Below are positions 3,471 through 54,670 of a stretch of DNA of 64,000 bases, piece by piece; within the stretch, counting starts at the first letter, position 1; each line of letters begins with the position of its first letter. A model generated the notes under the pieces. That model saw only the letters and a list, made by a program, of their open reading frames with translations, had not been told where the DNA came from and ran no database searches. The DNA comes from Mycobacterium sp. Marseille-P9652 (GTDB lineage Bacteria > Actinomycetota > Actinomycetes > Mycobacteriales > Mycobacteriaceae), in assembly GCF_902652685.1 (NCBI RefSeq), contig NZ_CACRUY010000019.1:23311-87310 (forward strand). The letters run 5' to 3'. A program made the translations under genes and the position numbers.

Positions 3471-5596
3471 ACGCAACGGGCCAAACGCCTTTCCTCTCGG
3501 GTGTGCGGGTGCTTCAACTTGGTGACGGCATCGCCGGTTCGGCCGCCACGGCGCTGCTGGCCAGCCTCGGTGCGGAAGCGACGAAGGTGGTTGATGCCGA
3601 CGCACCTCATCGGGCGGGTCCCGTGATCGTCACCCCGGCCGGACCGGTCGCGGCCGTGGACCTCACTCTCGATCGCGGCAAGCGGATCGTCCACCCACCG
3701 ACGGACCTCTCCGCATTGACCGACGAGTACGACCTCGTGATCGTCGACCACGGGCGTGCCGTCACGCCACCGGCCGCCGACAACGCAGTCGTCGTCACAG
3801 TCAGCCCGTTCGGCCTCGATGGGCCTCGGTCGTCGGAGCCCGGCGGCGAGCTCGTCGCCCAGGCGGCCGGCGGTCTGCTGGCCACCATCGAGGGGTCCGA
3901 CGGTGCGCCCGTACCGGCGCCGGGCTACGTGGCCCTGAAGGCGGCGGGAGCCGTCACGGCGCTGGCGGCATTGCATGGCCTCGATCGGCGCAACGAGAGC
4001 CACGGGCCGGTGCTCGTCGACGTGTCGGTGCAGGAGGCGGTCGCGTTCACCGCGGCACTTCCGGAATGCGCCCACGTGCTCTATGGGTGCCCCGGAAGGG
4101 CCGGCAGCGGGCGTTATCTCGCGCCGTCGGGACTGTTTCCCTGCCGCGACGGCCTGGTCCGCATCACCGCAGTCGAGAACCACCAGTGGCGGGGTCTGCT
4201 TGCGGCGCTCGGCCATCCGGGCTGGGCCGACGGTCTCGACGAACGCCAGGCCCGCATCGACCACGCCGATCTGATCAACCAACACGTAACAGCCTGGGCG
4301 GCAACGCACGACAAGGAAGAGTGCGCGGCAACGCTACAAGCCAACGGCGTGCCGTCGACACCGGTGAATACCGCTAAAGAGATCTTGGCCTCACCGCAGT
4401 TCGCCTTCCGCGGCACTCTCTCGACGACGCCGCTCTGCGGCGTCGAAGTCCCCGTGCTCGAGTCGCCGTGGCTCACCCACGTTGGACAACGGTCGGATCA
4501 CACTCGCACCGGCCGCCTGAGCGACGTACGGATAGCCGAACTGACCCACGTCTTAGCCGGGCCGATCGTCGGTGCGCTGCTCGGTGCGATGGGGGCCACG
4601 GTGCTGCGGCTCGAAGATCCTCAGCGGCTCGACATTTACCGGCGGACTGGTCCGTTCGCCCGGGGTAAGCCCGGTGTCAACCGCGGTGCGTATTTCGCGG
4701 TGGCCAACCACTCCAAGCAAAGCCTGTTGATCGATCCTGCGCGCACCGTGGACGACGTCGCCGCGGCGTTATCCGACGTTGACGTCCTCATCGAGAACGT
4801 CGGCAGTGCGCGCCTCGCCAAACTCAAGGTGGATCCGGCCGACATGGCCCGTTCGGGGAGGCTCGCACTGCGGGTCTCCGGCTTCGGCTCGGAGGGGCCC
4901 ATGGCCGGGTACCGGGTGTACGCCAACAACGTTCAGGCTTATGGCGGGTTGGCCGGATTGACGGTCGGACCGGATGGAGCTCCGGCGCGGCTCGGCACCG
5001 TGATCGCCGACCCGTTGTCCTCGGTCGTGGGCGCAGCCGTGATCGCGGCGTGGGCCGTCGGGCCCGCGCGTGACACCGGCGCCATCATCGACCTCTCCAT
5101 GGCCGAGGTCGTCGCGTCCACCGTGGCCGAGTTCGTCGCCGCAGCCGCGGGGAGCCCCGACACCGGAGATTCCCGGCATCGCGGCGTCTATCGCGCCGCC
5201 GACGGCCGCTGGGTCGCCGTTGAAGTCGTGGAGCCCGATGAGTGGAAATGCCTGGCAGAGTTCTCTGGAGTATCGAATGATTCGGGGCATCCAGCGATCG
5301 TCGAGAAGCTGACGGGCCTGGTTGCCGCCGCGTCGGCCGACGATGTCTCCGCGCGACTGAACGCGTTGGGTTTGCGCGCCGCGGCGGTGCAACGGGCCGA
5401 GGACCTCGTTGTCGATCCGCATCTGGCGGTTCGCGGATTCTTTCCGGAGATCGCTCATCCAGACCCGGACATCAGTCCCGCCCGTCTCGTTGGGTTGCCG
5501 TGGCGATTCCACGGTCAAGGACCCGTCCCGCTCATGCCGCCACCGGCCCTGGGCAACGCGACTGCGCACCAAGGAGGCATGACCAATGTCCGCTGA
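3467..5596 (+). CDS. Tandem-domain CaiB/BaiF CoA-transferase
   Basis: A class III CoA-transferase of 709 residues made of two fused CaiB/BaiF domains (roughly 8-345 and 350-700). Class III enzymes move CoA between acids through an Asp-anchored intermediate. Domain 2 retains the expected Asp (VIADPLSSVVG), while the aligned position in domain 1 (GYVALKAAG) reads Tyr by eye, so domain 1 looks catalytically degenerate. CaiB enzymes are normally interlocked dimers, and here both protomers are on one chain. The start chosen is GTG 3467, which overlaps the upstream stop (GTGA); an open frame runs further upstream but lies within the dehydrogenase gene. Confidence 0.9.
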   Translation: MNATGQTPFLSGVRVLQLGDGIAGSAATALLASLGAEATKVVDADAPHRAGPVIVTPAGPVAAVDLTLDRGKRIVHPPTDLSALTDEYDLVIVDHGRAVTPPAADNAVVVTVSPFGLDGPRSSEPGGELVAQAAGGLLATIEGSDGAPVPAPGYVALKAAGAVTALAALHGLDRRNESHGPVLVDVSVQEAVAFTAALPECAHVLYGCPGRAGSGRYLAPSGLFPCRDGLVRITAVENHQWRGLLAALGHPGWADGLDERQARIDHADLINQHVTAWAATHDKEECAATLQANGVPSTPVNTAKEILASPQFAFRGTLSTTPLCGVEVPVLESPWLTHVGQRSDHTRTGRLSDVRIAELTHVLAGPIVGALLGAMGATVLRLEDPQRLDIYRRTGPFARGKPGVNRGAYFAVANHSKQSLLIDPARTVDDVAAALSDVDVLIENVGSARLAKLKVDPADMARSGRLALRVSGFGSEGPMAGYRVYANNVQAYGGLAGLTVGPDGAPARLGTVIADPLSSVVGAAVIAAWAVGPARDTGAIIDLSMAEVVASTVAEFVAAAAGSPDTGDSRHRGVYRAADGRWVAVEVVEPDEWKCLAEFSGVSNDSGHPAIVEKLTGLVAAASADDVSARLNALGLRAAAVQRAEDLVVDPHLAVRGFFPEIAHPDPDISPARLVGLPWRFHGQGPVPLMPPPALGNATAHQGGMTNVR

Positions 5597-5816
5597 TCGT
5601 CCCGCCACCGTGTGGGCGTCGACCTTCGTTCCCGGGAAGTCACCGATCCCCGGGTACGGCCAGGACGGCTACAGCGTCGCCTGGGTCGACACCCCCGACG
5701 GGCGGTTGCAAGTGCTGGTATCCGGGCGTCGTCCGGCGCCCGGCACCGTCGGCCGACTCGTCGACAAGACGTTGGAGGACAACATCATCGTTCTGTTCGA
5801 GGCGCAATCCGAATGA
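5586..5816 (+). CDS. Mini DUF35-type OB-fold protein without zinc ribbon
   Basis: A 76-residue protein resembling the C-terminal OB-fold half of DUF35 proteins (segment SVAWVDTPDGRLQVLV), with no cysteines and hence no zinc ribbon. DUF35 proteins accompany thiolase-like enzymes; in cholesterol degradation the DUF35 domain of ChsH2 binds the aldolase Ltp2. The gene starts 11 bp inside the preceding gene and its stop overlaps the thiolase-like start (ATGA), so a complex with that protein is likely. The family assignment rests on length, context and the OB-like strand pattern. Confidence 0.7.
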   Translation: MSADRPATVWASTFVPGKSPIPGYGQDGYSVAWVDTPDGRLQVLVSGRRPAPGTVGRLVDKTLEDNIIVLFEAQSE

Positions 5817-6931
5817 CAGGGACGCACGTCGCCGGTATCGGCGTCACACCGTTTGGCAAATTCGCCGACACCGCGCTGGCGACGCTCGGCTTCCGGGCCG
5901 CCGAGGCGGCACTTGCCGACGCGGGTATCGGCTATGACGCTGTCGGCGAGGTGTTCACTTCGTCCTCGATGGCGCCGCCCCAGACCGGCCTCAAAGTCGC
6001 ACTCCGCCTGGGCCGCACAGGGGTTCCGGTCACCGCCGTCGAGAGCGCCTCGGCGGGAGGCATGGTGGCCCTGCGACACGCCGTGTGGGCGGTGGCCTCC
6101 GGTCGTTGCGACACCGCGCTGGCGATCGGCTACGAGAAGACCACCGCGCTGGAACCCGGCGGCGTGGTGCCGGCGGCGGTCGACTTTTGGGACCGCTTCC
6201 CACCGCAGGTCCACTACGCGATCGAGGCGGATCGGTGGCTGCATGAGACCGGTTGCGGGCCGGAGGTTTTCGGAGCCGTCGCGGCCAAGTCGTACAACCA
6301 GGCGCGGCTGAATCCGCTCGCGGCGCGGCGCAACGACGACGAAGTAACGGTTGACCAGGTCATGGCTGCGCGGATGGTCGCCGAGCCGCTCACCAAGATG
6401 ATGTGTCACGCGTCCGTCGATGGTGGTGCGGCGATCGTCGTGACCGCCGGGCAGCGTCCCCGGTCCGTGGCGGTCAACGCGATCGAGCAGACGAGCTGGC
6501 CGCGAGATCAGGCCTGGCCGCTCGCCGGTCCGTGTGTCGGGCCGCCGTCACAGATCACGCTGACCGCTCGGCGCGCGTTCGAGGCGGCGCGGGCAACGCC
6601 GCACGACGTCGGATTGGTCTCCCTGCATGACATGTGCGCCAGCGAGGAGGTCACCGCGCTGATCGCGCTCGGCCTCGTGGAGGGCCGGGAGGTGGCCGAG
6701 CTGGCCCAGACGGGCGGCCTGGGATCCAAAGGCAGGCTGCCGACCAACACCGACGGCGGCTGCCTTGCTCGCGGCCACGCGTTCGGTGCGACCGGACTGG
6801 CCCAGGTCGCCGAGGTGGTGGGTCAGCTTCGCGGAGAGGCGGATTCGCGGCAAGTCGCCGACCCTCGCGTCGGGCTGGCGCAGGCGATGGGCGGCGGCGG
6901 CTCCTGCGTCGTCGCCGTGCTGGGTCGGTGA
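5813..6931 (+). CDS. Thiolase-superfamily protein (SCP-x/Ltp-like)
   Basis: A 372-residue thiolase-fold protein. The N-terminal nucleophile region reads VESASAGGMVAL, so the cysteine of ordinary thiolases appears replaced by Ala. The C-terminal glycine-rich segment GGCLARGHAFGATG matches the thiolase GH motif. It lacks the YD(S/G)F segment seen in the other two thiolase-like genes of the window, so it belongs to another subgroup. It may be a C-C lyase or acyl-CoA-binding partner acting with the small DUF35 protein just upstream. The ATG at 5813 overlaps the upstream stop; a longer open frame upstream is out of phase with the DUF35 gene and unlikely to be used. Confidence 0.85.
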   Translation: MTGTHVAGIGVTPFGKFADTALATLGFRAAEAALADAGIGYDAVGEVFTSSSMAPPQTGLKVALRLGRTGVPVTAVESASAGGMVALRHAVWAVASGRCDTALAIGYEKTTALEPGGVVPAAVDFWDRFPPQVHYAIEADRWLHETGCGPEVFGAVAAKSYNQARLNPLAARRNDDEVTVDQVMAARMVAEPLTKMMCHASVDGGAAIVVTAGQRPRSVAVNAIEQTSWPRDQAWPLAGPCVGPPSQITLTARRAFEAARATPHDVGLVSLHDMCASEEVTALIALGLVEGREVAELAQTGGLGSKGRLPTNTDGGCLARGHAFGATGLAQVAEVVGQLRGEADSRQVADPRVGLAQAMGGGGSCVVAVLGR

Positions 6932-6934
6932 TCG

Positions 6935-8155: not shown

Positions 8156-8309
8156 TCAGCCGATTCCGCCGAGTGCGGAGATCCGCTCCCAGTCGCGACC
8201 GAGTTCCACGATGAGCGCCACGGTGCGTTGTGCGAACGCAGTTCGACGGTCCAGGAGCCGGTGTGGTCGGTGCGGTGGAAGCCGATGAGCGGGTTGTGCG
8301 GGGTCAGCG
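8156..8309 (-). pseudogene. Relic of a CaiB/BaiF CoA-transferase gene
   Basis: The sequence between the P450 and APH-like genes is a gene remnant. On the minus strand the first frame reads TPHNPLIGFHRTD, matching the middle of the intact CoA-transferase at 9641-10861 (TPHNPLTGFYRTR). A second frame then reads AFAQRTVALIVELGRDWERI and ends in a stop at 8156-8158, matching that protein's C terminus (ELGKDWDDI). The stretch between those two segments, well over 100 codons in the intact copy, is missing and the frames differ. The relic touches the stop codon of the APH-like gene. It is most simply a decayed paralogue that once followed the APH-like gene. Confidence 0.75.
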
Positions 8310-9644
8310 GCCGAGCAACTGCGCCAGGGGTACTAGCGGCCGCACGCCCCCAGCGCGATTGAGAACTGGTTCCAGCAAACGCATCTGCCGCATGATGCGG
8401 CGGTGGAACAGCCGTATGAGTTCGGCGTCCATGTGCTCGGGCGCTCGCAGCACGAATGCCTCCAAGGCCTCATCGCCTGCACGCCAGTCGGTGTATCGGG
8501 AGCCGAGCAGGCGTTCGACGTCGTCGAGGTTTTCGGATTCGATCGCGGGACCGTGCCGGCACACGCCGGCAACGTAGCGCGCGGTTTGCGCCGTTTGATG
8601 TCGGCGAAAGCGCTCAATCTCGGTCTCGGCGGGTAATTCCTCGATGATGGGTGCCAACGCGTCGACAAGGCCGCTCTGGCGGACATCCGGCGCCTGCGGG
8701 AGTCGGTAATCGTCGAGGGCGACGCCCTCGACCGCGGCCATTGCTTCGACGGCGTTGAGCGAGCATTGCTGAAACCACTCCTCATACTGCAGCAGGTCAC
8801 TCATCGGAAATGGGTTGTGCAAGATCATCACCAACGAGAGAGGCGTGGTGAGCGAGAACTGCGCGGTGTGGAACTCGACCACCGGCAGGTCCAGTTCTAC
8901 GCCGGAAACCTCCTCATAGCGCCGGAACGCGCGCTCGAGGTCACCGAAGGGCTCGGAGATGTCCCGCAGGCGCAGTCCTGCGAGGTCATGTGCGGTGTCG
9001 CCGAGGTAGGCCAGTTCGACGTCGAGCAGTCCGGTCACACGACCATCGGCGAACATGAACTGTCCGGGATCGCCGAGGACGAAGCGCGGGTCGAACCGGT
9101 GCGCGGGAACGTGGCGGCGGATCCAGCCGATGCCGAATTCCAGAAACGGCTCCGGGTGTTTCTTGGTGGACCGATACCTCGCGACGGACTCTTCGAAGCT
9201 CGACAACGCGTGCTGCCGTGGGTCTTTAGGTAACTTGAGTCCGACAGCGGAGAATTCACGTGGATCCAGCCGATGGATCCGCGCAAGGATTTCCATGTAT
9301 TCGTCGATGACCGAGATGCGCTCTGCTGCGCTCGGCGAGGTTGACAGATTGGTGGCGCCGGGCAGGCGATCCATCACGATGGCCGGTGGAGCGTCAATCC
9401 GACCGTGAATGTGTGGAACTGGAATCCCCTGCTTCTCAAGGGCTTCGATGACATTCGCTTCCCGATGAGTGGACAACGAGAACTCCATGCCCTCGCGGTC
9501 GCCACGCACATACAGCGGCATGATTGTGCCGTCGCGTTCGACGTCGGCGAACCAGGCCGGACGCCAACGTGGTTGGCGCTCGAAGGCCCGCACGGGCCCT
9601 AGGTGACTCTCGAGCCAGCTTCGTACCGCCTCATCGGGTGTCAC
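8304..9644 (-). CDS. APH/choline-kinase-like phosphotransferase, divergent active site
   Basis: A 446-residue protein with the layout of the aminoglycoside phosphotransferase (APH) family. The catalytic HGDxxxxN motif appears as LGDPGQFM (residues 190-197): the Asp is kept, but His and Asn are changed. The DWE metal motif reads DVE (208-210), followed by GDTAHDLAG. Family members next to fadE genes often act on hydroxyacyl-CoA intermediates (ACAD11-like), which is a possible role, but changed residues make kinase activity uncertain. The GTG start overlaps the stop of the upstream CoA-transferase gene (GTGA). The intact family member at 58545 gives a useful contrast. Confidence 0.8.
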   Translation of the reverse strand: MTPDEAVRSWLESHLGPVRAFERQPRWRPAWFADVERDGTIMPLYVRGDREGMEFSLSTHREANVIEALEKQGIPVPHIHGRIDAPPAIVMDRLPGATNLSTSPSAAERISVIDEYMEILARIHRLDPREFSAVGLKLPKDPRQHALSSFEESVARYRSTKKHPEPFLEFGIGWIRRHVPAHRFDPRFVLGDPGQFMFADGRVTGLLDVELAYLGDTAHDLAGLRLRDISEPFGDLERAFRRYEEVSGVELDLPVVEFHTAQFSLTTPLSLVMILHNPFPMSDLLQYEEWFQQCSLNAVEAMAAVEGVALDDYRLPQAPDVRQSGLVDALAPIIEELPAETEIERFRRHQTAQTARYVAGVCRHGPAIESENLDDVERLLGSRYTDWRAGDEALEAFVLRAPEHMDAELIRLFHRRIMRQMRLLEPVLNRAGGVRPLVPLAQLLGR

Positions 9645-13422: not shown

Positions 13423-14621
13423 ACGCGCTGAGCGGGATTCGGGTCGTCGAGATCAGCGGCCAGTTCACCCCCGTCGGGGGAAGGCTGCTCGCCGAACTCG
13501 GCGCCGAGGTCGTCGTCGTCGAACCTCCCACCGGATCCTCACATCGGTCGCGGCCGCCGTTCGCCCACGACAACACTGGGCCGAATACCAGCCTGCGATG
13601 GTGGAGCGGCAACGTAGGCAAACGGTCGGTGACCGTCGATCTCGACACCGCGCAGGGCGTCAACGCACTGGGGCGCCTGATCGCCGGCGCCGACATCGTG
13701 ATCTCCGCCGATGGCCCCGTCGGCGATGTCCGGCGCCCATCCCTGATCTGGGTGGCGGTCAGCCCCTTCGGGCTGGACAGCGTCCGCGCCGACCAACCGG
13801 TCACCGACCTCACGATGCTCGCCGGCGGGGGTCCGGTTTGGAACTGCGGATACGACGACCATTCTCTGCCGCCGATCCGCGGCGCCGGCGAGCAGTCGGC
13901 CAACATCGCCGGCCTGTACTGCGCGATCGGAGCGCTGGTCGCCCTGGCGCACCGCGACCAGACCGGCGAGGGTCAGCTCGTCGACGTCAGTGTCAACGCC
14001 GCCTGCAACGTCAGTTCGGAGCAGACCACCTACCACTGGCTGGTCAACAACGAGACGTGCGTCCGGCAGACCGGCCGGCACGCGTACTTCACGCCGAGTC
14101 AGCCGACCCAGGTCCGATGCGCGGACGGCGCCTACGCCACCACCGGCGTGCTGCCCCGAAAACCGGTGGAATTCGCGAAGCTGCTTGATTGGCTCGGGGA
14201 CCTCGGCCTCACCGACGAGCTTCCCGAAGCGGTGTTCTTGGAGATGGCCGCCTCTCGCGACGAGCCGGTCGACATCGCGATGATCGGTGCCGACGACGAA
14301 ACCACCGCGATACTGACCGCGGCCCGCGACGCGATCACCTTGATCGCCTCCCGCATGCCGGCCAACGAGTACTTCCTGGAGAGCCAGCGACGCGGGTTCC
14401 CCGCCGGAGCGGTGCTGTCACCCGACGAGGCCTTCGAGAACGAACACATCGCCGCCCGCGGATTTCAGGTGCCGGTCCACCACCGCGAACCGGGGGAGAC
14501 CTTCCGCTATCCCGGCACGCCATACCTGTTCAGCGCCAGTCCTGCAGGCGGTCCGGCACGGCCACCCCTGCTCGGGGAACACAACGCGCTGCTCGACGAA
14601 CTCGCCGACGACACCGCATGA
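13419..14621 (+). CDS. CaiB/BaiF CoA-transferase with apparent CTG start
   Basis: A class III transferase homologue of about 400 residues. Homology begins at ALSGIRVVEISGQF, immediately after the upstream stop, and the only start-like codon there is CTG 13419, which overlaps that stop as CTGA just as other genes here overlap by ATGA or GTGA. I find no in-frame ATG, GTG or TTG between the upstream stop and 13632. The catalytic Asp position appears to be Glu (GAGEQSANIAG), so this chain may be a structural partner of the previous transferase. The next gene overlaps by ATGA. Confidence 0.82.
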   Translation: MNALSGIRVVEISGQFTPVGGRLLAELGAEVVVVEPPTGSSHRSRPPFAHDNTGPNTSLRWWSGNVGKRSVTVDLDTAQGVNALGRLIAGADIVISADGPVGDVRRPSLIWVAVSPFGLDSVRADQPVTDLTMLAGGGPVWNCGYDDHSLPPIRGAGEQSANIAGLYCAIGALVALAHRDQTGEGQLVDVSVNAACNVSSEQTTYHWLVNNETCVRQTGRHAYFTPSQPTQVRCADGAYATTGVLPRKPVEFAKLLDWLGDLGLTDELPEAVFLEMAASRDEPVDIAMIGADDETTAILTAARDAITLIASRMPANEYFLESQRRGFPAGAVLSPDEAFENEHIAARGFQVPVHHREPGETFRYPGTPYLFSASPAGGPARPPLLGEHNALLDELADDTA

Positions 14622-15070
14622 CCGACCGCCTCACCCACATCGGGCTGTGCGTCAGCGATCTCGGGAAAGCTGTCGAGTTCTATTGCTCAGCACTTGGATT
14701 CGAAGAGTGCGGTCGGATGCGGGTAGACGGGCCGGACACGGCACAGCTGCTGGGGGTGGTGGGGCTGGTGCTTGACCTTGTATATCTGCAGCGCGATGGA
14801 TTTCGGCTCGAGTTGCTCAACTACGTGGCCCCGGGCGTTGACGGAAGTGACGGGCCTCGACAGATGAACGCGGTGGGCTTCACGCACCTGTCTTTCCGCG
14901 TCGACGACCCGGACGCGTTCGTCGCAGGTATCGAGCGCTTGGGTGGCCGCGCTCGACCGGAACGGACGGTGACGTTCGGGGGCGGCAATCGGGGACTGAT
15001 GGCCACCGACCCCGATGGGAACTGGATCGAATTGATCGAACGAACGCCGCCCAAGCAACTGAGCAATTAG
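14618..15070 (+). CDS. VOC (glyoxalase/epimerase-type) protein
   Basis: A 150-residue vicinal-oxygen-chelate protein with two beta-alpha-beta-beta-beta modules. It opens with LTHIGLCVSDLGKAVEFY and ends with LMATDPDGNWIELIE, the usual first and last metal-binding strands. A methylmalonyl-CoA-epimerase-like or dioxygenase-like role is possible, and epimerisation of an alpha-methyl acyl-CoA would fit neighbouring acyl-CoA genes (inference). The ATG overlaps the CaiB stop by 4 bp. The preceding segment of open frame belongs to another phase of the CaiB gene. Confidence 0.85.
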   Translation: MTDRLTHIGLCVSDLGKAVEFYCSALGFEECGRMRVDGPDTAQLLGVVGLVLDLVYLQRDGFRLELLNYVAPGVDGSDGPRQMNAVGFTHLSFRVDDPDAFVAGIERLGGRARPERTVTFGGGNRGLMATDPDGNWIELIERTPPKQLSN

Positions 15071-15108: not shown

Positions 15109-16308
15109 ATGGCCGTGCCAGCGACCAGCGAGTTGATGTATTCGCCGTTCTCCAAGGCGATCTTCGACGATCCGTACCCGGTGTACCGGAGACTGCGCGA
15201 CGAGGCGCCCGTCTACCGGGATGCCGAGAACCGCTGGTGGGTCCTGTCCAGATTCGACGACGTATCGCAGGCTCTCCGCGATTGGGAGACCTTCTCGTCC
15301 AAGCGCGGTCCGGCGCCGGAGAACCCGGACAACGACGGACGCAAGTACTCGGTGATCTCGATGGACCCGCCCCGCCACGACCGCATTCGCGGGGTTCTGA
15401 AGAGTTTCTTCACGCCAAAAGCGGTCGCAGCCATGGAATCTGCCCTGCGGGAGGTGGTCAACACGCACCTCGACCGGCTACGGCCGGGTACCACCGTCGA
15501 CGCGATGGAGGCCTTCGCGTTCTCGGTGCCCACGGACGTGATCGGTGACCTCCTCGGCGTGCCGCACACCGACCGTCAGCAGCTGCGCGTCTGGTGGGAG
15601 GCCTTCCTCACCCGGGAAGAAGGGCAGGTCGCGATGCCGGCCAAGGCCATCGAGGCCAACCGTCTGATCAGCCAGTACATCGGGGACCTGATCGAGCGGC
15701 GCCGCACCGACCCGGGCGACGACCTGATCAGCGTCGTGCTGCAAGCCACGTTCGACGACCCCGAAGCCGGCGGTCACCGCTCCCTGACCGCGCACGAAGT
15801 GCTGATGTTCTGCAATCTCCTGTCGGCCGCCGGCTCGGAAACCACGCAGAAGCTGATCTCCAACGGCCTCGTCGCGCTCGCCGAACACCCCCAGGAGTGG
15901 CATCGCATCGTGAAGGATCGCAGCCTCATTCCCGCCGCGGTGAACGAGGCGCTGCGCTACGACACCCCGAGCCACTGGGTGGCCCGCACCTTGACCCGGC
16001 CCATCCAGCGGCACGGCGTCACCATGGACGCCGGCGACTGGGTGCTGCTGCTCCTGGGCAGCGCCAACCGCGACGAACGGCGCTACCACGACCCCGACCG
16101 CTTCATCGTCGACAGGCCGCGCGGCACCGACGTGTATTTCGGGTGGGGGATTCACATCTGTCTGGGGCAATGGTTGGCGCGCCGGGAGGCGCAGCTGGTG
16201 TTCTCTTACATCGCCGACAAGTTCCCCGACTACGCCATCGGGGCGCGCGAACGCGTGCTGACCGCGACGGTGCGTGGATATACCAGCGTGGAGATGACCC
16301 TGCGCTGA
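15109..16308 (+). CDS. Cytochrome P450
   Basis: A 399-residue P450 with I-helix AAGSETTQ, K-helix NEALRYD and haem loop YFGWGIHICLG (Cys at about 351). The loop has Trp and Ile where the other P450s here have Lys/His and His/Phe, so it is not a recent duplicate of them. A 38-bp gap separates it from the VOC gene, enough for a weak promoter (TTGTTCACC...GATAGAG). The acyl-CoA dehydrogenase pair follows after 2 bp. Confidence 0.94.
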   Translation: MAVPATSELMYSPFSKAIFDDPYPVYRRLRDEAPVYRDAENRWWVLSRFDDVSQALRDWETFSSKRGPAPENPDNDGRKYSVISMDPPRHDRIRGVLKSFFTPKAVAAMESALREVVNTHLDRLRPGTTVDAMEAFAFSVPTDVIGDLLGVPHTDRQQLRVWWEAFLTREEGQVAMPAKAIEANRLISQYIGDLIERRRTDPGDDLISVVLQATFDDPEAGGHRSLTAHEVLMFCNLLSAAGSETTQKLISNGLVALAEHPQEWHRIVKDRSLIPAAVNEALRYDTPSHWVARTLTRPIQRHGVTMDAGDWVLLLLGSANRDERRYHDPDRFIVDRPRGTDVYFGWGIHICLGQWLARREAQLVFSYIADKFPDYAIGARERVLTATVRGYTSVEMTLR

Positions 16309-16310
16309 CC

Positions 16311-17354
16311 ATGGAGATCGCGTTCACCGACGAGCAGCAACTGCTCCGCGACACCGCCGCGCAGCTGGGGGAGAGCGTCGCCGTCACCAGCGCGGACGCC
16401 ATCCCGACCGGCGAAGCGCTCGACGCCCAGTGGCGCCGCCTGGTGGATCTCGGTGTGCCAACGCTGCGTTGCCCCACCCTGTGCGGACTCGAGGCGAGCG
16501 GCGTGGAAACCGTCATCGTGATCGAAGAACTCGCCAAAACCCTCAGCGCCGTTCCGGTTATGGGCCAGGCGGTGCTGGCCACCGAACTCCTCGAGGCGGC
16601 CCGGGCCGAGAAAGAACTGGAGCTCGTCGCGGAAGGCAGCCTTCGGCTCGCGCCGGTGCTGCGCCCCGACCTAACGGGATTCGGCTCAGCTCACCGACCC
16701 GGGGTGGCATTCGACGCCGCGGGCGCCACCCACGCACTACTGGCGACCCACACCGACGGACATCGTCGGCTTGTGTGCGCACCGCTGGGCGCCGCCGACC
16801 ACCCTGCTCTGGACCTGACCCGGGAATTCCGTTGTTTACCAGTCGATTCGGCCGCCTCCGCGCAGGTGATCGGAGATCCCGTCGATGACGAACGGTGGCG
16901 GCGGGTGGAGTCGTTGGCGATGACCGCCGTCGCCGCCGACTTGGTCGGCATCATGCAGGGCGCCCTGGACGATGCGGTCTGTTACGCGGGTGAGCGGGCT
17001 CAGTTCGGTGTGAAGATCGGCTCGTTTCAGGCCGTGGGCCATCTGCTCGCCGATGCCCTGGTGCAGGTCGAGGGCGCCCGGAGTTGCCTCTGGCACGCCG
17101 CGTGGGCGACCGACCACCTGCCGGCCGACGAGGCACGCCTGTCGGCGATGACCGCGAAGGCATACGCCTCCGCCGCGGGCCGAGAGGTGGTGGAGGCGAC
17201 GGTTCAGGTGTTCGGTGGCATCGCGATCACCTGGGAGCACGTTTCGCACCTGCGGTTGCGCCGGGCTCTCTTGGACCGGCGATTGTTCGGCGACGAGACG
17301 GTGCACTACGAGGCCATCGGCGCGCTGCGGCTGGCGAACCGGGAGCTCGCTTAG
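16311..17354 (+). CDS. Acyl-CoA dehydrogenase, FQ-type partner subunit (fadE-like)
   Basis: A 347-residue dehydrogenase homologue with FGVKIGSFQAVGH and QVFGGIAITWEHVSHLRL but without the FSEP or GTSE motifs. The next gene has exactly the opposite set, so the two probably assemble as an alpha2beta2 enzyme. The order of the two subunit types is reversed relative to the 1199/2385 pair. ATG 16311 is 2 bp after the P450 stop; an open frame further upstream is a different phase of that gene. Confidence 0.88.
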   Translation: MEIAFTDEQQLLRDTAAQLGESVAVTSADAIPTGEALDAQWRRLVDLGVPTLRCPTLCGLEASGVETVIVIEELAKTLSAVPVMGQAVLATELLEAARAEKELELVAEGSLRLAPVLRPDLTGFGSAHRPGVAFDAAGATHALLATHTDGHRRLVCAPLGAADHPALDLTREFRCLPVDSAASAQVIGDPVDDERWRRVESLAMTAVAADLVGIMQGALDDAVCYAGERAQFGVKIGSFQAVGHLLADALVQVEGARSCLWHAAWATDHLPADEARLSAMTAKAYASAAGREVVEATVQVFGGIAITWEHVSHLRLRRALLDRRLFGDETVHYEAIGALRLANRELA

Positions 17355-17356
17355 CG

Positions 17357-18496
17357 ATGGACTTCAACGACAGCGCACCCGAAGCGCAGTTCCGCGCCGA
17401 GCTCAGGCGGTGGCTGTCCGACCACGCCGCCGACGCAGCCATCCCCGATGATCCGGCTGCTCGGGCTGACGCCCAAAATGCCTGGCATCAAACGCTTTAC
17501 GAAGCCGGATACATCGGGTTGTCCTTCCCCGTCGAGTATGGAGGACATGGCAAGCCGCCGGTCTACGAGGCAATCCTCAACGACGAGCTCGGGCGGGCCG
17601 GGTCCGCGCCCATCGAGGGCGTGGGTCACCTCAGCAACGCGTTGCGCCTGTTCGGGACCGACGAGCAGCGCGACGCGTTGCTGCCCGGCCTGTTGTCCGG
17701 CCGCGTGCGCTGGTGTCAGGGCTTCTCTGAACCCGAGGCCGGATCCGACCTCGCCGGGCTCAAGACCCGGGCCGATCTCATCGACACCGACGGGCGTGAG
17801 ATCTTTCGCGTCAACGGCCGCAAGATTTGGACGAGCTTCGGTGCGGTCGCCGACTGGTGCTTCCTGCTGTGCCGCACCGAGCCGGACGCGCCGAAGCACG
17901 CGGGCATCTCCGTGTTGCTGGTGCCGATGTCGACGCCCGGCATCGAGGTGCGCCCCATCATGAACGCCGCACGCAACCGTGAGTTCACCGAGATCACCTT
18001 CGACAACGTGGAGGTACCGGCGATAAACCTGCTCGGCAAACGCGGGGACGGCTGGTCGATCGCCAACCAGTTGCTTGCGTACGAACGCGGTCCCAGCGAT
18101 ATCAACTGGATCGGCCGGCTCAAAACCCAGTTACTGCGCCTGGAGGAGGACGTACGCGTCGGCTGGCTCGAAGACTCCCCGTCGGCTCGGGCCCGGCTGG
18201 GGCAGGCCTACGTCGAGTTGCGAGCGCTGCAGATCAAGGTCATGAGATCGCTCACGGAGCGCCAAAACGGCAAGCTTCCCGGGCCCGAGGGGTCGGTCGA
18301 CAAACTGCTCATGACGCGTGCCGACCAGTTCTTCGCCCATGCCATGATGGACCTTTCGGCCAGTGGCCCGCTGCTCACCGAAGGCCTGGAATGGGACATC
18401 TACGTGTGGTCACGCGCCGCCGGCATCTACGGCGGAACCGCCCAAATCCAGCGCAACATCGTCGCCCAACGGGTGCTGGGTTTGCCGCGCGCCTGA
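17357..18496 (+). CDS. Acyl-CoA dehydrogenase, FSEP-type subunit (fadE-like)
   Basis: A 379-residue flavoprotein with GFSEPEAGSDLAGL (residues 122-135) and a C-terminal GGTAQIQRNIVAQRVLGLPR segment. It pairs with the preceding gene, from which it is separated by 2 bp. In the C-terminal segment the usual GTSE is GTAQ, so the Glu there is replaced by Gln, which may affect the reaction or reflect the divided active site. It resembles the protein at 1199 in length and motif layout. Confidence 0.9.
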   Translation: MDFNDSAPEAQFRAELRRWLSDHAADAAIPDDPAARADAQNAWHQTLYEAGYIGLSFPVEYGGHGKPPVYEAILNDELGRAGSAPIEGVGHLSNALRLFGTDEQRDALLPGLLSGRVRWCQGFSEPEAGSDLAGLKTRADLIDTDGREIFRVNGRKIWTSFGAVADWCFLLCRTEPDAPKHAGISVLLVPMSTPGIEVRPIMNAARNREFTEITFDNVEVPAINLLGKRGDGWSIANQLLAYERGPSDINWIGRLKTQLLRLEEDVRVGWLEDSPSARARLGQAYVELRALQIKVMRSLTERQNGKLPGPEGSVDKLLMTRADQFFAHAMMDLSASGPLLTEGLEWDIYVWSRAAGIYGGTAQIQRNIVAQRVLGLPRA

Positions 18497-20157: not shown

Positions 20158-21651
20158 TCAATCGAGCGGGACGGCGATGTCGGTCGAAGTGGTGCGGCCG
20201 CGTAGCACCTTGGAGTCGATGACCCGCCACCGCCGCGACTCCTCCTGATTGGCCATGACCACTGCCGCGGCCGACACGGCGACGCCGGCCGACAGCTTGG
20301 CGATTTCGGTGAGCCGCGCCGCCTCGTTGACCGGGTCGCCGATCACCGTGTATTCGTAGCGGCCCGGATGGCCGACGTTGCCGGCCACCGCCATGCCGGC
20401 CGACACTCCGATGCCGGCCCTGATCGGCGCGCCGGGTGGATTCAGTAGCGCGTTGAGTTCACGCGCTGTGGCCAACGCGTGGGCGGCGCTGTCGGCATCT
20501 TCGAAAGGAGCGCCAAAAATCGCCAGTGCGGCGTCCCCTTCAAACTTGTTGATCAGACCACTGTTTCGTTCCACGACATTCACCACCACTGCGAAAAATT
20601 TGTTGAGCGTCTCCAACAACTCGGGTGGTTCCACTGTGGCGGCCAGTCGTGTCGAGCCGACGAGGTCCACAAATAACACCGCCACCTCGCGGTTGACACC
20701 CCCCATCTCAATCTGGTCACCGGCGGCGAGTTGCTCGGCCAAACGGGCCACCTCGTGGCCGACGTGGCGGCCGAACAGGTCGCGCAACCGTTCGCGTTCG
20801 CGTAGACCAGTTGCCATGGTGTTGAAACCGGCCTGCAGTAGCCCGAGCTCCGAGGCGTCGAAAACGGGCACCGATACGTCGAAATCGCCACGCCGCACCG
20901 TTTGCATGCCGCGCGTCACTTCGTCGATGGGATCGGCTATGGCCGACCCGTTGAACGCCGCGACCACTAAGCCGCACGCCACCGTGCAACTGTCGAGCAC
21001 CAGTACGGTGAGGGCGAGCCGGTGCGCCGGATAATCCACGGCCAAGGCGCTGGCGGCGACCAGGATACCCATCAGCAGCGGAGCACCGGTTCCGATCAAC
21101 CAGGCGCTCATGGCACGCAGCCGGAGGCCTGGCCCTTGAGGCTGTGTCGGCGGGTGATCGGTGAGCAGCTTGGCCGTTGTCGGCCGTAGCGCGATCTTGC
21201 ACATCCAATACGACAGTGCGGTTGTCACGATGGCGCCCAGGATCATCGACACGCCCAGCGTCGCCGCCAGCCACGGTGTGCCGAGGTTGATCAGGACGAA
21301 AACGACGCTGGCCGTGGACCACACCGCCCCGTGGACGACGGCCATCCTCCTCGGTATGGCCAAGACGACCCGCCGCGCGGTCGCGTCGCTCGCGCCCGCC
21401 GGCAGGCTCATCCACAAATAACCGCAGATCGACGCACAGGGAAGGCTGACGGCGCAATAGCAGAGCGCCACAACGATGTTGAACCGCAACACATGTTGTT
21501 GGGCGAGCGCCGTGCCCGTCGGCAGGCCCCACAGGGCCAGTGCGGCGATCAACGCCGAGCCGACAATCGTTGGGATGACCGCCCCGGAAATGAGCAGGGG
21601 TCTTCCGGCGGGAGCGAACGGCGAACGCAGCCCGCGCCGGACCCGCTTCAC
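20158..21651 (-). CDS. Membrane HAMP adenylyl/guanylyl cyclase (class III)
   Basis: A 497-residue signalling enzyme with about six hydrophobic N-terminal segments (to about residue 235), a HAMP linker (PIDEVTRGMQTVRRGDFDV) and a C-terminal class III cyclase domain. Catalytic features are visible: VDLVGS with metal Asp 329, NKFEGD with Lys 369 and Asp 373, and GDPVNEAARL with Asp 439, Asn 442 and Arg 446. The architecture equals that of M. tuberculosis Rv1318c-Rv1320c/Rv3645. The signal it senses is unknown, and cAMP production next to catabolic genes suggests a CRP-type link (inference). The GTG start overlaps the upstream lactonase stop. Confidence 0.93.
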   Translation of the reverse strand: MKRVRRGLRSPFAPAGRPLLISGAVIPTIVGSALIAALALWGLPTGTALAQQHVLRFNIVVALCYCAVSLPCASICGYLWMSLPAGASDATARRVVLAIPRRMAVVHGAVWSTASVVFVLINLGTPWLAATLGVSMILGAIVTTALSYWMCKIALRPTTAKLLTDHPPTQPQGPGLRLRAMSAWLIGTGAPLLMGILVAASALAVDYPAHRLALTVLVLDSCTVACGLVVAAFNGSAIADPIDEVTRGMQTVRRGDFDVSVPVFDASELGLLQAGFNTMATGLRERERLRDLFGRHVGHEVARLAEQLAAGDQIEMGGVNREVAVLFVDLVGSTRLAATVEPPELLETLNKFFAVVVNVVERNSGLINKFEGDAALAIFGAPFEDADSAAHALATARELNALLNPPGAPIRAGIGVSAGMAVAGNVGHPGRYEYTVIGDPVNEAARLTEIAKLSAGVAVSAAAVVMANQEESRRWRVIDSKVLRGRTTSTDIAVPLD

Positions 21652-37360: not shown

Positions 37361-38523
37361 AGCGTGGCCACCGTTCCCAGAATCACGGTCGACGTCGCCG
37401 AGAGGACCCCGCCGGTGCCGTGTGCGACAGCCGTTTTCGCTTCCGGAACCTGGCGCTCGCCGCATTCACCCCGCAGCTGGCGTGTGGCCTCGACGAGCAG
37501 GAAGGCCCCGAACGCCCCGGGGTGGGTGTAGGCGAGGCCACCGCCGGACGTCTGACCCGGCAGCGCACCCCCGGGTCCCAATGTCCCGTCCGCGACGAAC
37601 GGACCGCCTTCGCCTTTGCCGCAGAAGCCCAAGTCCTCGAGCGCTAGCAACACCGTGATGGTGAACGAGTCGTAGAGTTCGACCACGTCGATGTCGGCCG
37701 GGGTGAGGCCCGCGGCACGGAAGGCGGCCGGCCCCGAGAGCGCCCCCGGCGTGACGGTGAGGTCGGGCATTTGGGAGATCATCGCGTGCGAGGCCGCCGA
37801 CGCCGCACCCAGGACGAAGGCCGCCGGCCTGGCCAGGTCGCGTGCGCGCTCGGCGCTCGTGACAACCAGCGCCGCGGCGCCGTCGGTGACCAGGCAGCAC
37901 TCGAGCTTGTGCAGCGGTTCGGCGAGGAAGCCCGAGCCCAGGACGTCCTGGACGGTGATCGCCTCGCGCAGGTGAGCTCGTTCGTTCAGCGCGGCCCACC
38001 GCCGGGTGTCGACGGCGATCTGCGCCAGCTGTTCGGGTGTCGTCCCGTACGTCGCCATGTGGCGGTTGGCCGCCAGGGCGTAGGCGCTGATCGGGAGCAT
38101 CACCCCGAACGGCGTCTCCCACTCCAGGCGCTCGGGAGTGGCGAAGACGCCGAGGCCCTTTTCACCACGCTTGCGGGCGGCGCGCGGCGTCGAGGCATAG
38201 ACGATCACGACCGTCTCCGCCTCGCCGGCTGCGATCGCCGCGGCGGCGTGCTCGACGTACAACCCGTAGCTGGCGCCGCCGATCTGCGTGGCGTCGGTGA
38301 AGCGCGGCGCTATCCCCAGGTACTCGGCCAGCTCCACCGAATGCATGAGCGTGCCGCCGGTGCAGGTGCACAACCCGTCGACTTCGCGGAGCGACAAACC
38401 CGCGTCTGCCAGGGCGGCGGTGATCACGCGCGCCTCGAGCTCGCGCAGCGGAACGTCGATCACCCCGGTTGCCGAAACCTCCTCGGCCACGCCGACAATG
38501 GCGGCCACACCTCGGGTCGTCAA
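37357..38523 (-). CDS. Thiolase-fold lipid-transfer/aldolase-type protein (Ltp2-like)
   Basis: A 388-residue thiolase-superfamily protein. The nucleophile region reads TQIGGASYGLYVEHAA, without Cys, and VELYDSFTITVLL carries the YDxF tyrosine found in Ltp2-type retro-aldolases. SGGGLAYTHPGAFG replaces the thiolase GHP motif. With the DUF35 protein it probably forms a retro-aldolase that releases a short CoA thioester. A TTG start at 38523 overlaps the upstream ligase stop as TTGA, fitting the coupling pattern. Confidence 0.87.
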   Translation of the reverse strand: MTTRGVAAIVGVAEEVSATGVIDVPLRELEARVITAALADAGLSLREVDGLCTCTGGTLMHSVELAEYLGIAPRFTDATQIGGASYGLYVEHAAAAIAAGEAETVVIVYASTPRAARKRGEKGLGVFATPERLEWETPFGVMLPISAYALAANRHMATYGTTPEQLAQIAVDTRRWAALNERAHLREAITVQDVLGSGFLAEPLHKLECCLVTDGAAALVVTSAERARDLARPAAFVLGAASAASHAMISQMPDLTVTPGALSGPAAFRAAGLTPADIDVVELYDSFTITVLLALEDLGFCGKGEGGPFVADGTLGPGGALPGQTSGGGLAYTHPGAFGAFLLVEATRQLRGECGERQVPEAKTAVAHGTGGVLSATSTVILGTVATL

Positions 38524-40019
38524 TTTTCTGTCCCTTCGAAGAGCTCGCTCAGCCCTGGTTGGCTGACCTTGAGCGATGGTGTGCGGGGCAACTCCTCGAC
38601 GATGACCAGCCGGGCCGGAACGTAGTAACGGCTCAATCGTTCACGCGCGTAGGCGAGCAAGTCTTCGGGCGTGGCGCGCGCGCCTTCGGTCAACTCGACC
38701 GCCGCGACAGGCACGCGGCCGAGCCGTTCATCGGGCAGGCCGGTCACGCCTACATCGCGGACCGCCGGATGGCTACGCAAGACATCGACGATCTCGGCCG
38801 GATTGACCTTGAAACCCCCGCGAATGATGACGTCGTCGGTGCGCCCGTCGATGAACACAAACCCGTCGGCGTCGACCCGGCCGAGGTCTGTGGTCCGCAC
38901 CCATTCCCCGCCCATGGTGCGAACCTCGATGCGGCCCTGCTCGCCGGGTGGCATCTCGGAGTCGTCCTCGACAGACATGACGCGGATCTCCCGGCCGCGC
39001 TGCGGGCGCCCGACGCTTCCGCGTTTGAGGGTCGCCCACTGCCGATGCAAGGCGAGGTTCCAGCCGGCCACGCCGCCGGCGAATTCCGTTGCCCCGTAGG
39101 ACGGCAGCACCGCGACGCCGTAGCGGCACTCGAACCTCGTCTGCAGCTCGACCGGGAGATGCGCGGTTCCCGAGGTCACCACCTCGACGCTCGAAAAGGC
39201 ATCCGGGTCCACGCCCGCGTCGATCACCATCGCCATGGCCGACGGCACCAGGCTCACGGCCTTCGGTCGGTGCCGGAGTAGCAAGTCCACAAAGTCGGGA
39301 ACGCGGAATCGCTCCAGGAGCGCGATCTTTCTCCCCTCGCAGATGTTGAGCAGCGTGCGGAACAGCCCGGACATGTGCACCAGGGGAGAGGAGACGATGG
39401 CGACACCCGAGCGGAGTTTGAGTTCCGAGTCACGCCCGCGCCCAACACTGTAATGCGCGCTGGCCGCTGCGACGGTCTGTTCAAACGATCTGTAGGTCAG
39501 TGGTATTCGCTTGGGCGGCCCCGTGGTTCCGCTCGTCAGCATCTCGACGGCGACGCCTTCGGCGGGCGGACGGAACGGGCCTGGTCCGGGATGTTCCAGC
39601 CCGTCCACAACGGCCGCACTGGCCGCGTCACTCAACGCCCGAATACCTAGCGCCCCAGCGGCAGCGTCGACGATTCCGGCGCGCTCCCAGTCGGCCTGCA
39701 ACGCCACGACCGCAGGCAACCGCAGCTCGCGGATGTCGGCGCAGAGCCCGGCGTCACCCTGGGACGGGTTGATCGTGACCACGCAACCGCCGGTCAGCAG
39801 CACGCCGAGCAGGGCCCCCACCATAGCGGGATGATTGCGCAGCACGAGGCCGACGGGTGACCCCCGCCCCAAACCGACTGAGCCCAAGCAATGTTGGACG
39901 TCCGCGGCGACGTCCGACAGTTCCTGCCAGTCAATCCACTGGCCCTCGTACTCGATCGCGGGCGCCCGCGAGTCGAGGGCGAAAACCGCGCGGATGCGAT
40001 CGGCGAGTTGCTGGCTCAA
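38520..40019 (-). CDS. AMP-dependent acyl-CoA synthetase
   Basis: A 499-residue ligase of the fadD/ANL family. The AMP-binding loop LTSGTTGPPK is at 161-170, the GATEFAGG motif follows, and the RTTDLGRVDADGFVFIDGRTDD...RGGFK hinge leads to the C-terminal domain. The catalytic Lys of the last motif is probably in SLKVSQ. It would activate a carboxylic acid as acyl-CoA, and the natural acid is unknown. Its ATG overlaps the stop of the LLM gene by 4 bp. Confidence 0.92.
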   Translation of the reverse strand: MSQQLADRIRAVFALDSRAPAIEYEGQWIDWQELSDVAADVQHCLGSVGLGRGSPVGLVLRNHPAMVGALLGVLLTGGCVVTINPSQGDAGLCADIRELRLPAVVALQADWERAGIVDAAAGALGIRALSDAASAAVVDGLEHPGPGPFRPPAEGVAVEMLTSGTTGPPKRIPLTYRSFEQTVAAASAHYSVGRGRDSELKLRSGVAIVSSPLVHMSGLFRTLLNICEGRKIALLERFRVPDFVDLLLRHRPKAVSLVPSAMAMVIDAGVDPDAFSSVEVVTSGTAHLPVELQTRFECRYGVAVLPSYGATEFAGGVAGWNLALHRQWATLKRGSVGRPQRGREIRVMSVEDDSEMPPGEQGRIEVRTMGGEWVRTTDLGRVDADGFVFIDGRTDDVIIRGGFKVNPAEIVDVLRSHPAVRDVGVTGLPDERLGRVPVAAVELTEGARATPEDLLAYARERLSRYYVPARLVIVEELPRTPSLKVSQPGLSELFEGTEN

Positions 40020-41188: not shown

Positions 41189-42016
41189 GTGGCTCTGTTC
41201 GACTCTGCGGTCGGAACCGTGTTGCCGCCGAGCACCTTCCGCTGGGGCGAGACCGACGTGATCCTGTACGCGTTGGGGGTGGGCGCCCGCCCGCCGTCCG
41301 AGCTGAGGCTCCTCAACGAGGCTTGCGGTCCCGATGTGCTGCCGACGTTCGCCCTGGTGGCCAACTGGTGGGCCGTCAAGGATCTGCGCAGTGCGCTCGA
41401 CCTGGGGACGTATCCGATCGTGCACTCCGCGCAGTCGCTGGAGCTACACCGGCCGATCGGCGCCGACGGGGAAATGTCGGTGCAGGCCGAGGTGTCGGCG
41501 GTCTGGGACAAGGGCAAACACGCGGCCGTCGAGGTGACCAGCCGCGGCGCCGATCCGGACGGGACCGTGTTCGTCGCCAGGTCCCAGACCATGGTTCTCG
41601 GTGCGGGGGGATTCGGCGGCGACCGTGGACCCGCCGCGGAACCGGACCCGGACGGGCCGCCGGACGCGATATTCGACGACGTCGTCCGGCCCGAGCAGGC
41701 TGCCCTCTACCGCCTCTCGGGTGATCGCAACCAACTGCACATCGACCCGGAGGCGGCCCGGAAGTACGGCTTCGACGACGTCTTCCTGCACGGGCTGTGC
41801 ACGCTCGGGTTCGCCGCGCGGGCGGTGATCGACCGGATCGGTGACGGGAACCCCCGGTCGCTGACATCCTTGAGCTGCCGGTTCTCCAAACAGGTAAAGC
41901 TCGATGCTCCGCTGCGGACGGAGATCTGGCGGACCGAAGGCTCGGTGCGTTTCCGGACGCTGCAGGGTGACGCCGTCGCCCTCAGCTCCGGAACCGCCAC
42001 GCTGGCAGGGGTGTGA
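41189..42016 (+). CDS. Double-hotdog (R)-hydratase (MaoC/MFE-2 type)
   Basis: A 275-residue protein with an N-terminal hotdog domain and a C-terminal hydratase 2 motif, YRLSGDRNQLHIDPEAARKYGF...FLHGLCTLG, holding the catalytic Asp and His. Eukaryotic MFE-2 and mycobacterial ChsH-type proteins hydrate 2-enoyl-CoAs in this way. It is the true hydratase candidate of the neighbourhood, since the crotonase paralogues lack hydratase glutamates. GTG 41189 follows a GGGAGA site. Its stop overlaps the TetR start (GTGA). Confidence 0.9.
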   Translation: MALFDSAVGTVLPPSTFRWGETDVILYALGVGARPPSELRLLNEACGPDVLPTFALVANWWAVKDLRSALDLGTYPIVHSAQSLELHRPIGADGEMSVQAEVSAVWDKGKHAAVEVTSRGADPDGTVFVARSQTMVLGAGGFGGDRGPAAEPDPDGPPDAIFDDVVRPEQAALYRLSGDRNQLHIDPEAARKYGFDDVFLHGLCTLGFAARAVIDRIGDGNPRSLTSLSCRFSKQVKLDAPLRTEIWRTEGSVRFRTLQGDAVALSSGTATLAGV

Positions 42017-53047: not shown

Positions 53048-53069
53048 CAGTCGGATTCGCCCATAACCC

Positions 53070-53495
53070 ATGACTCACATCCCAGACCCCGACCGGCCGG
53101 TCCCCGCGCTGACGGCCCTGAATCGGCCTTTCTGGACCGCCGGCGCCGACGGAGTGTTGCGCATGCAACGCTGCACCAGCTGCGGACGGCTGTGTCACCC
53201 GCCCGCGCTGCTGTGCCCTGTTGACCACGCGGCCACCGAGTATGTCGACCTCAGCGGCCGCGGGTTCGTCGAATCCTGGACGGTGAACCGCCACCAATGG
53301 TTCCCGGGGTTCACGCCGCCGTACCTCATCGCGTTCGTCAACCCGGTCGAAGACGAACGGGCACGCCTGCTGACCAACCTGGTGAACGTCCGTCCCGACG
53401 AGGTCACGCCAAATATGTCCGTCCGGGTCACGTTCGATCGACGCACAGACGGCGACGACGAGGTCTTCGTCCCATTGTTCGAGCCGGAGCGCTGA
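53070..53495 (+). CDS. DUF35 OB-fold protein, zinc ribbon with altered fourth ligand
   Basis: A 141-residue DUF35 protein. The ribbon has Cys 35, 38 and 49, but the fourth position is Asp 52 with His 53 next to it (CPVDH), so zinc would be bound with His/Asp or not at all. The OB part contains FVNPVEDERARLLTNLVNV. It overlaps the thiolase-like ATG by one base (TGATG) and probably forms a complex with that product. Confidence 0.88.
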   Translation: MTHIPDPDRPVPALTALNRPFWTAGADGVLRMQRCTSCGRLCHPPALLCPVDHAATEYVDLSGRGFVESWTVNRHQWFPGFTPPYLIAFVNPVEDERARLLTNLVNVRPDEVTPNMSVRVTFDRRTDGDDEVFVPLFEPER

Positions 53496-54670
53496 TGAGG
53501 AGCTTGGTGACCGACCGGGCCATCATCAGCGGCATCGGTCAGTCGGCGATCGGTCGCCGGTTGGGCCGCGACCCGCTGGAGCTCACCGCCGAAGCCTGTC
53601 TGGCCGCGGTCGACGACGCGGGCTTGTCCCTCGCCGATATCGACGGGCTGACAACCTATCCCGGTTCCTCGCAACCCGGCCTCGGGTTCTCCGGGGCGTC
53701 GCTGCGCGACATCCACGACGCGCTGGGAATCAGGCCGAACTGGGTCGCCGGGGGAGTGGAATCCCCCGGACAGCTCGGCGCTGTGGTGGATGCGATGCTG
53801 GCGGTCGCCGGAGGGCTTGCCAACCACGTCTTGTGTTGGCGCAGCATCTGGGAGGGCACCGCCCAGGGGGCCGGCCGGCGCAGGGGCTACGGCTCTGGTG
53901 GCGGCCGCCCCGCCGGAATGCTGGGTTGGCAGATGCCATTTGGCGTGACGGCGGCCAACCTGGCGGCGCTGCAGATCCGCGCGCGGATGGTGCGGTATGG
54001 CCTGACCCGGGAGCAGCTCGCGTCGATAGCGATCGCGCAGCGAGCCCACGCCGCGCGCAACCCCACGGCGATCTATCGCGAGCCACTCGACCTGGACGCG
54101 TACCTGAGCGTGCGGATGGTCTCCGACCCGCTCTGCATGTTCGACTGCGACATCGCCTGCGACGGGGCCACCGCGTTCGTCATCTCGCGTGCCGATCACG
54201 TCGCCGCGCTGGATCATCCCGGCGTGGCCGTCGAAGCCCTCGACTGCGCCCACCACGACCGGTTCACGTGGGAGGGCGGCGAAGACATCACCCGCATCAG
54301 TTCGCGCTGGTCCACGATTTGGGAGCGCACCGATTTCACGATCGACGATGTGGACGTGGCATCGTTGTATGACGGGTTCAGCGTCTTCGTGCTGTGCTGG
54401 CTGGAGGACTTCGGCTTCTGCCCGGTCGGCGAATCCGGCGCGTGGGTCGCGGAACCCGGGCGCATCTCGCTGGGCGGACAATTGCCCATCAACACTGCCG
54501 GGGGGCAGCTGTCCGGTGGACGCCTACACGGCTTCGGGCACCTGCACGAAGCATGCGTGCAGGTCCGTGGCGAGGCCGGTGCGCGACAGGTCGACGGCGC
54601 CACGCTGGCCGCGGTCGGCGTCGGAGCGGCCAACAGCGGAACTACCGCGATGCTGCTGCGGCGGGCTTGA
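53495..54670 (+). CDS. Thiolase-fold lipid-transfer/aldolase-type protein (Ltp2-like)
   Basis: A 391-residue thiolase-superfamily protein. The nucleophile region reads VAGGVESPGQLGAVVDAM, with no Cys; ASLYDGFSVFVLC keeps the YDxF tyrosine and GGQLSGGRLHGFGHLHEA is the C-terminal glycine-rich motif. This pattern is that of the Ltp2-type retro-aldolase rather than a thiolase. It is coupled to the DUF35 gene and followed, after a GAGGAGG site, by a dehydrogenase gene. Confidence 0.87.
   Translation: MRSLVTDRAIISGIGQSAIGRRLGRDPLELTAEACLAAVDDAGLSLADIDGLTTYPGSSQPGLGFSGASLRDIHDALGIRPNWVAGGVESPGQLGAVVDAMLAVAGGLANHVLCWRSIWEGTAQGAGRRRGYGSGGGRPAGMLGWQMPFGVTAANLAALQIRARMVRYGLTREQLASIAIAQRAHAARNPTAIYREPLDLDAYLSVRMVSDPLCMFDCDIACDGATAFVISRADHVAALDHPGVAVEALDCAHHDRFTWEGGEDITRISSRWSTIWERTDFTIDDVDVASLYDGFSVFVLCWLEDFGFCPVGESGAWVAEPGRISLGGQLPINTAGGQLSGGRLHGFGHLHEACVQVRGEAGARQVDGATLAAVGVGAANSGTTAMLLRRA

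Follow-up and report, generated by a model that had tools for sequence, protein, structure and literature searches.

The closest described relatives of the locus reported here are two aldolases with DUF35 partners, Ltp2-ChsH2 (PDB code: 6ok1) and Sal-Shy (PDB code: 9myr). Ltp2 has a thiolase fold without the nucleophilic Cys, a Tyr base in a YDxF motif (YDHF, Tyr294), a His at position 296 and an acid Tyr at position 344, the activity that marks its type being retro-aldol cleavage of a 17-hydroxy C3 side-chain CoA, and Sal has Tyr302, Cys304 and Gln352. According to PMC10398937, M. neoaurum requires the atf1-chsH4 pair, an aldolase with a free-standing DUF35 protein, to degrade the sterol side chain by the 4-HBC branch. 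On the thiolase side stand SCP2-thiolase, BbsAB and the archaeal acetoacetyl-CoA thiolase-DUF35 complex, the latter two with a DUF35-type partner. Absence of the nucleophilic Cys from a thiolase fold is also on record for a mycobacterial protein, M. smegmatis TLP1, with Gly102 (PMC3406046); by the description given there it differs in being monomeric, with an extra C-terminal domain and no thiolase fingerprints. Here we analyze a 64 kb stretch of Mycobacterium sp. Marseille-P9652 (contig NZ_CACRUY010000019.1, positions 23,311 to 87,310; hereafter the window), from a genome of 5.70 Mb in 128 contigs. It holds three gene pairs, each made of a DUF35 gene and a thiolase-fold gene (thl1, thl2 and thl3). 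The island presents three different ways of losing the nucleophilic Cys, probably within one pathway.

All three pairs reported by the first-pass annotation are present, and the genes of each pair overlap. On the plus strand, the first DUF35-type gene (P0002, 5586-5816, ATG start at 5586 and stop at 5816) shares four bases, ATGA, with thl1 (5813-6931, ATG at 5813). The second pair lies on the minus strand, where thl2 (38523-37357) is followed by a DUF35 gene (P0004, GTG at 37360, running to 36965) with a four-base GTGA overlap. In the third pair, on the plus strand, the DUF35 gene (P0006, 53070-53495) and thl3 (53495-54670, ATG at 53495) have one base in common. The Pfam domain Thiolase_C_1 is found in all three thiolase-fold proteins. 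The DUF35 proteins of the second and third pairs match both zf-ChsH2, the zinc ribbon, and OB_ChsH2_C. P0004 has an intact ribbon with four Cys. P0006 has the pattern C-x2-C-x10-C-x3-H, a Cys3His1 pattern different from that reported for Shy, which is kept at 10 of 12 distinct orthologue loci, with Gln in the other two. As judged from adjacency and gene overlap, the DUF35 proteins may bind their thiolase-fold neighbors, thl1 included.

In a 65-row tree that includes solved relatives, a branch with 100/100 support parts thl2 and thl3, on the Ltp2/Sal aldolase side, from thl1, on the thiolase side. The same split is seen at 100/99 in a 39-row tree. thl2 and thl3 fall in separate clades, and no characterized member was found in either. 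Sal is the sister of the thl2 clade (96/87 in the 65-row tree), and a link between thl3 and Ltp2 is supported in the same tree (95/91). The best PDB match of thl3 is Ltp2 (6ok1), and thl2 matches 4u4e, a putative thiolase from Sphaerobacter, at 371 bits and has Ltp2 as its second match. For thl1, SCP2-thiolase, an acetyl-CoA acetyltransferase and BbsB come out best.

Active-site columns were read against the solved relatives and the Ltp2 and Sal residues as described in PMC12329534. The alignment places no Cys at the canonical nucleophile position in any of the three proteins, as the first-pass annotation had claimed; the column holds Ser80 in thl1, Gly in thl2 and Ser in thl3. The YD(S/G)F tyrosine, which it had seen in two of the three, is Tyr284 in thl2 (YDSF) and Tyr292 in thl3 (YDGF). 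Counted over distinct family sequences, those of the window included, the Gly at the nucleophile, YDSF and His (Tyr/Ser/His columns) are found in 10/10 thl2 sequences. YDGF and Arg (Tyr/Gly/Arg columns) are likewise found in all ten thl3 sequences. The nucleophile column of the thl3 family is variable, with Ser in eight, Val in one and Tyr in one, and the loop is two residues shorter. Both proteins thus resemble Ltp2 in the fold without the nucleophilic Cys, in the Tyr base and in the DUF35 partner, but they have Ser/His334 (thl2) and Gly/Arg343 (thl3) in place of Ltp2 His296 and Tyr344, and their DUF35 partners are free-standing, as in Atf1-ChsH4. Compared with Sal, only the Tyr is kept, and neither protein has a Cys or a Gln at the Cys304 and Gln352 columns. 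Because the His296/Tyr344 combination is absent, we assign no protein of the window to Ltp2.

It should be mentioned that thl2 shares YDSF and His with 4u4e and scores 472.9 against the NCBIfam model PRK06158, whose curated cut-off is 421. This model names thl2 an acetyl-CoA acetyltransferase although it lacks the nucleophilic Cys. The name is ill-suited to such a protein, and possibly the whole family is misnamed. Curated models name proteins of this kind acetyl-CoA acetyltransferase, lipid-transfer protein or thiolase.

thl1 groups with SCP2-thiolase, BbsAB and the archaeal complex. It keeps the HD and GHP-type histidines of the SCP2/BbsB type (His272, His322), and at the base site it has His272 rather than the Tyr of Ltp2. 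In its family, Ser at the nucleophile and the His are found in 38/38 sequences, with the motif HDMC (His272 to Cys275 in thl1) in 37 and HDLC in one. thl1 differs from the thiolases with which it groups by Ser80 and by replacement of both acid/base cysteines, Met274 standing at the HDCF Cys and Ala358 at the second Cys, that of CxG, by our reading of the alignment. It differs further by cysteines at two neighboring sites, Cys275 and Cys317, and by a partner without a zinc ribbon. Cys317 aligns with Sal Gln347, a position at which all 18 comparison sequences displayed (seven solved, ten of this genome and one of genome G030) lack Cys.

The thl1 partner is unusual among DUF35 proteins. The two-domain layout (PF01796 and PF12172) is described in a 2010 paper (PMC2954200) as conserved in all DUF35 homologues, and the OB domain is present in all three partners of the window; the partner of thl1, in contrast, is OB only. 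This open reading frame of 76 amino acids has no Cys and gives no DUF35 match in Pfam. By profile, model and orthologue it is the OB half of DUF35. The zinc ribbon is gone, with a stop codon just upstream of the start, and a distant orthologous pair in an Actinomycetota metagenome-assembled genome (MAG) still carries one. A chance open reading frame was rejected on the basis of 35 conserved pairs, 33 of them with the four-base overlap. Among 118 genus genomes, the 76-residue partner has matches with E values of 2.4e-22 or lower in 14, and weaker ones, with E values of 0.003-0.005, in a further two.

A contig search found 38 loci related to thl1, of which 35 are orthologues and three are distant. 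The OB partner stands beside the thl1 orthologue in all 35. A double CoA-transferase gene (family III, CaiB type; 3467-5596 on the plus strand in the window, with a predicted start) lies directly upstream of the OB gene and ends within 60 bases of its start in 33 of the 35 pairs, the exceptions being L089 and L104. M. scrofulaceum E3039, Mycobacterium sp. E796 and Mycobacterium sp. UM_CSW supply the closest named relatives of thl1, at 92% identity. The same 9 of 60 genus genomes carry an orthologue of thl2 (85-100% identity) and one of thl3 (80-100% identity, incomplete in genome G031), and all nine are among the 14 with a strong match to the 76-residue partner. The gene order is thl1-thl2-thl3 in G006, as in the window, and thl3-thl1-thl2 in G030 and G031. 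In Williamsia (L100) the three modules together take up no more than 21 kb, and further parts of the island follow to their right. In the MAG, thl1, thl2 and the partner of each are accompanied by dehydrogenases, CoA-transferases, an amidohydrolase and a lipoyl/E1 pair. Since the same nine genomes hold the modules and both Williamsia and the MAG keep much of the island, the three modules probably serve one pathway. A plasmid origin was also considered and rejected, all 499 plasmid records that match thl1 being <60% identical, with the best among those listed at 38%.

A DUF35 gene near a thiolase-fold gene is, in itself, ordinary in this genome. There are 12 matches to PF01796, two of them in the window and ten spread over nine other loci; the roughly 6 kb fetched at each of these nine contain a thiolase-fold gene. 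The proteins encoded include two Ltp2-like ones (69-70% to 6ok1, with YDHF and Tyr), one Sal-like one (51% to 9myr, with YDCY and Gln) and others. A further locus fetched, L030, has a plain SCP2-thiolase (64% to 6hsj). Of the 12 DUF35-thiolase loci in the genome (5.7 Mb), three nevertheless lie within 64 kb, for which the binomial P under an even spread is about 3e-4; this clustering fits one functional island. The pairs of the window are more than chance, as they are kept in orthologues and their loci cluster.

On balance we consider it somewhat probable that the genes of the island form a single catabolic pathway, which would break down a bulky cyclic or branched carboxylic acid and include three non-equivalent modules for C-C cutting, two of a retro-aldol type (thl2 and thl3) and one of a retro-Claisen type (thl1). 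Retro-aldol cleavage of a β-hydroxyacyl-CoA is favored for thl2 and thl3 because of their clade, their Tyr base and the absent Cys. Tyr284 or Tyr292 would take the proton from the β-hydroxyl. The proton donor would be unlike that of either known aldolase, with His334 a candidate in thl2; thl3 has no obvious donor, and its Arg343 may stabilize the enolate. The atf1-chsH4 pair of M. neoaurum offers genetic support, from within the genus, for an aldolase that works with a free-standing DUF35 protein. A retro-Claisen-type step on a β-ketoacyl-CoA of the same pathway, without a Cys thioester, would fall to thl1, as it is the only thiolase-side protein among the open reading frames scanned; its partner would be the OB domain alone. 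The nature of the substrate is suggested by an acyl-CoA dehydrogenase partner (2385-3470, plus strand) that lacks a middle-domain match and has Tcur3481 (6wy8) as its best PDB relative (72 bits), 4x28_D being eighth of 26 (49 bits). We take Tcur3481 and 4x28_D to be members of heteromeric steroid-CoA dehydrogenases. Going by this likeness, the partner hints at a bulky acyl-CoA, and the putative substrate type is a bulky cyclic or branched acid. The acyl-CoA ligases, the MFE-2 hydratase and the P450s of the island also speak for a pathway of this type.

Several points weigh against this proposal. thl2 and thl3 each lack the proton donor of both characterized aldolases, and Sal variants C304H, C304S and C304A are described as without detectable activity (PMC12329534). 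thl3 falls outside the other aldolases in the 39-row tree (93/32). At the position of Ser80, a Cys-to-Ser change is reported to have abolished activity in two PhlC-type acyltransferases (PMC6392133, Table 1; PMC12955522), and it may be that thl1 does not catalyze C-C cutting. The co-occurrence count over nine genomes takes no account of kinship among them. The MAG contig showed no thl3 in the 32 kb that were read, the rest of the MAG not having been searched for it. Finally, the PDB comparison of the dehydrogenases covers one partner, that at 2385-3470.

Given that the serine change inactivates PhlC-type enzymes, the natural Ser of thl1 either works with changed surroundings, Cys275 and Cys317, or marks a non-acylating protein. 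A bolder idea is one that we regard as unlikely at present: thl1 would found a natural serine-type thiolase branch, acting as a C-C hydrolase with Ser80 and His322, aided by the relocated Cys275 and Cys317, to turn a β-ketoacyl-CoA into a free acid and an acyl-CoA. The co-translated double CoA-transferase would return CoA to the freed acid, and the DUF35 protein would work with its OB domain alone. Another reading, to which we give a similarly low weight, makes thl1 a scaffold without catalytic activity, the role ascribed to PhlA in the phloroglucinol acyltransferase, and leaves the cutting of bonds to thl2 and thl3. The inactive C88S enzymes and the replaced thiolase cysteines (Met274, Ala358) are in line with such a role, but His272, Asp273 and His322 are invariant in a 36-row alignment that includes three distant relatives, Cys275 and Cys317 are present in all 38 family sequences, and the Ser is kept throughout without drift.

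We think it quite unlikely that thl1 decarboxylates an acyl-CoA or transfers acyl groups instead of cutting C-C bonds within a β-oxidation round. Its gene is coupled to a double CoA-transferase, and a thiolase-like protein of Trypanosoma, TbSLP, is described as slowly decarboxylating malonyl-CoA (PMC12329534); TbSLP, however, is of the YDCF type, unlike thl1. The suggestion of the first-pass annotation that all three are Ltp2-like retro-aldolases, cutting successive bonds, has in its favor the absent Cys, the DUF35-type partners and the co-inherited island and stands for thl2 and thl3 as to their side of the tree, but it is very improbable as a whole and was rejected for thl1, which is on the thiolase side at 100/100, has His and not Tyr at the base site and finds its best PDB matches among thiolase-side folds.

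Serine at the nucleophile is not confined to the thl1 family. When 396 genomes of the phylum were searched, 15 matched at E 1e-45 or better, the genome of the window included. These 15 loci and seven found earlier were compared, and Ser was present in five of the 22 (L113, L114, L118, L119 and L019) and Cys in 17. Among the DUF35 partners of the five, three have no recognizable zinc pattern, one has a degenerate pattern and one is intact. A strict link between a Ser nucleophile and loss of the zinc ribbon was dropped, as the ribbon is still present in two Ser-type pairs, L104 and L118; by pattern search, ribbons also look lost in the DUF35 proteins beside the aldolase-side proteins L022 and L025. 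The tree gives two changes at the origin of Ser, with one change in 60% of bootstrap trees. No natural Ser thiolase was found in open-licence PMC papers.

The window thus offers two previously unstudied relatives of the steroid aldolases, in which the proton-donor sites are candidate new ones, and, on the thiolase side, a form with serine. With the 76-residue partner and a ribbon-bearing orthologous pair at hand, the role of the zinc ribbon becomes testable. If active, these proteins would add to the catalysts available for cutting C-C bonds in bulky CoA esters and could be useful in steroid-like chemistry.

The neighbors in the window comprise acyl-CoA dehydrogenase pairs, CoA-transferases, acyl-CoA ligases, hydratases, short-chain dehydrogenases, P450s and luciferase-type monooxygenases. 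In one of the dehydrogenase pairs, the partner at 2385-3470 follows an acyl-CoA dehydrogenase with three Pfam domains (1199-2395, plus strand), and a second pair lies at 16305-17354 and 17351-18496 (plus strand, both starts approximate). An acyl-CoA ligase gene is directly upstream of thl2 (38520-40019, minus strand), and an MFE-2/MaoC-type hydratase is encoded at 41189-42016 (plus strand). No Rieske domain was found in the 56 open reading frames of the window scanned with Pfam, which lie outside 55.6-57.4 and 58.4-64 kb. The P450, ligase and monooxygenase relatives were also tried as guides to the substrate and set aside, their best PDB and NCBIfam matches being generic, and open-licence PMC papers yielded no literature on a terpenoid cluster or on Tcur3481.

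An amidohydrolase-2 family protein is encoded at the left end of the window (24-1202, plus strand) and is upstream in many island copies. The APH-type kinase gene at 8304-9644 occurs in only some of the island copies, and both it and the P450 gene after thl1 are gone from a number of island loci. A match to the glyoxalase/dioxygenase superfamily was obtained for a small gene at 14618-15070. At 31501-33794 lie a gene with a lipoyl domain and one for a fused 2-oxoacid dehydrogenase E1, which have counterparts of 61-67% identity in the distant MAG. A HAMP-adenylate/guanylate cyclase gene (20158-21651) is located inside the catabolic island.

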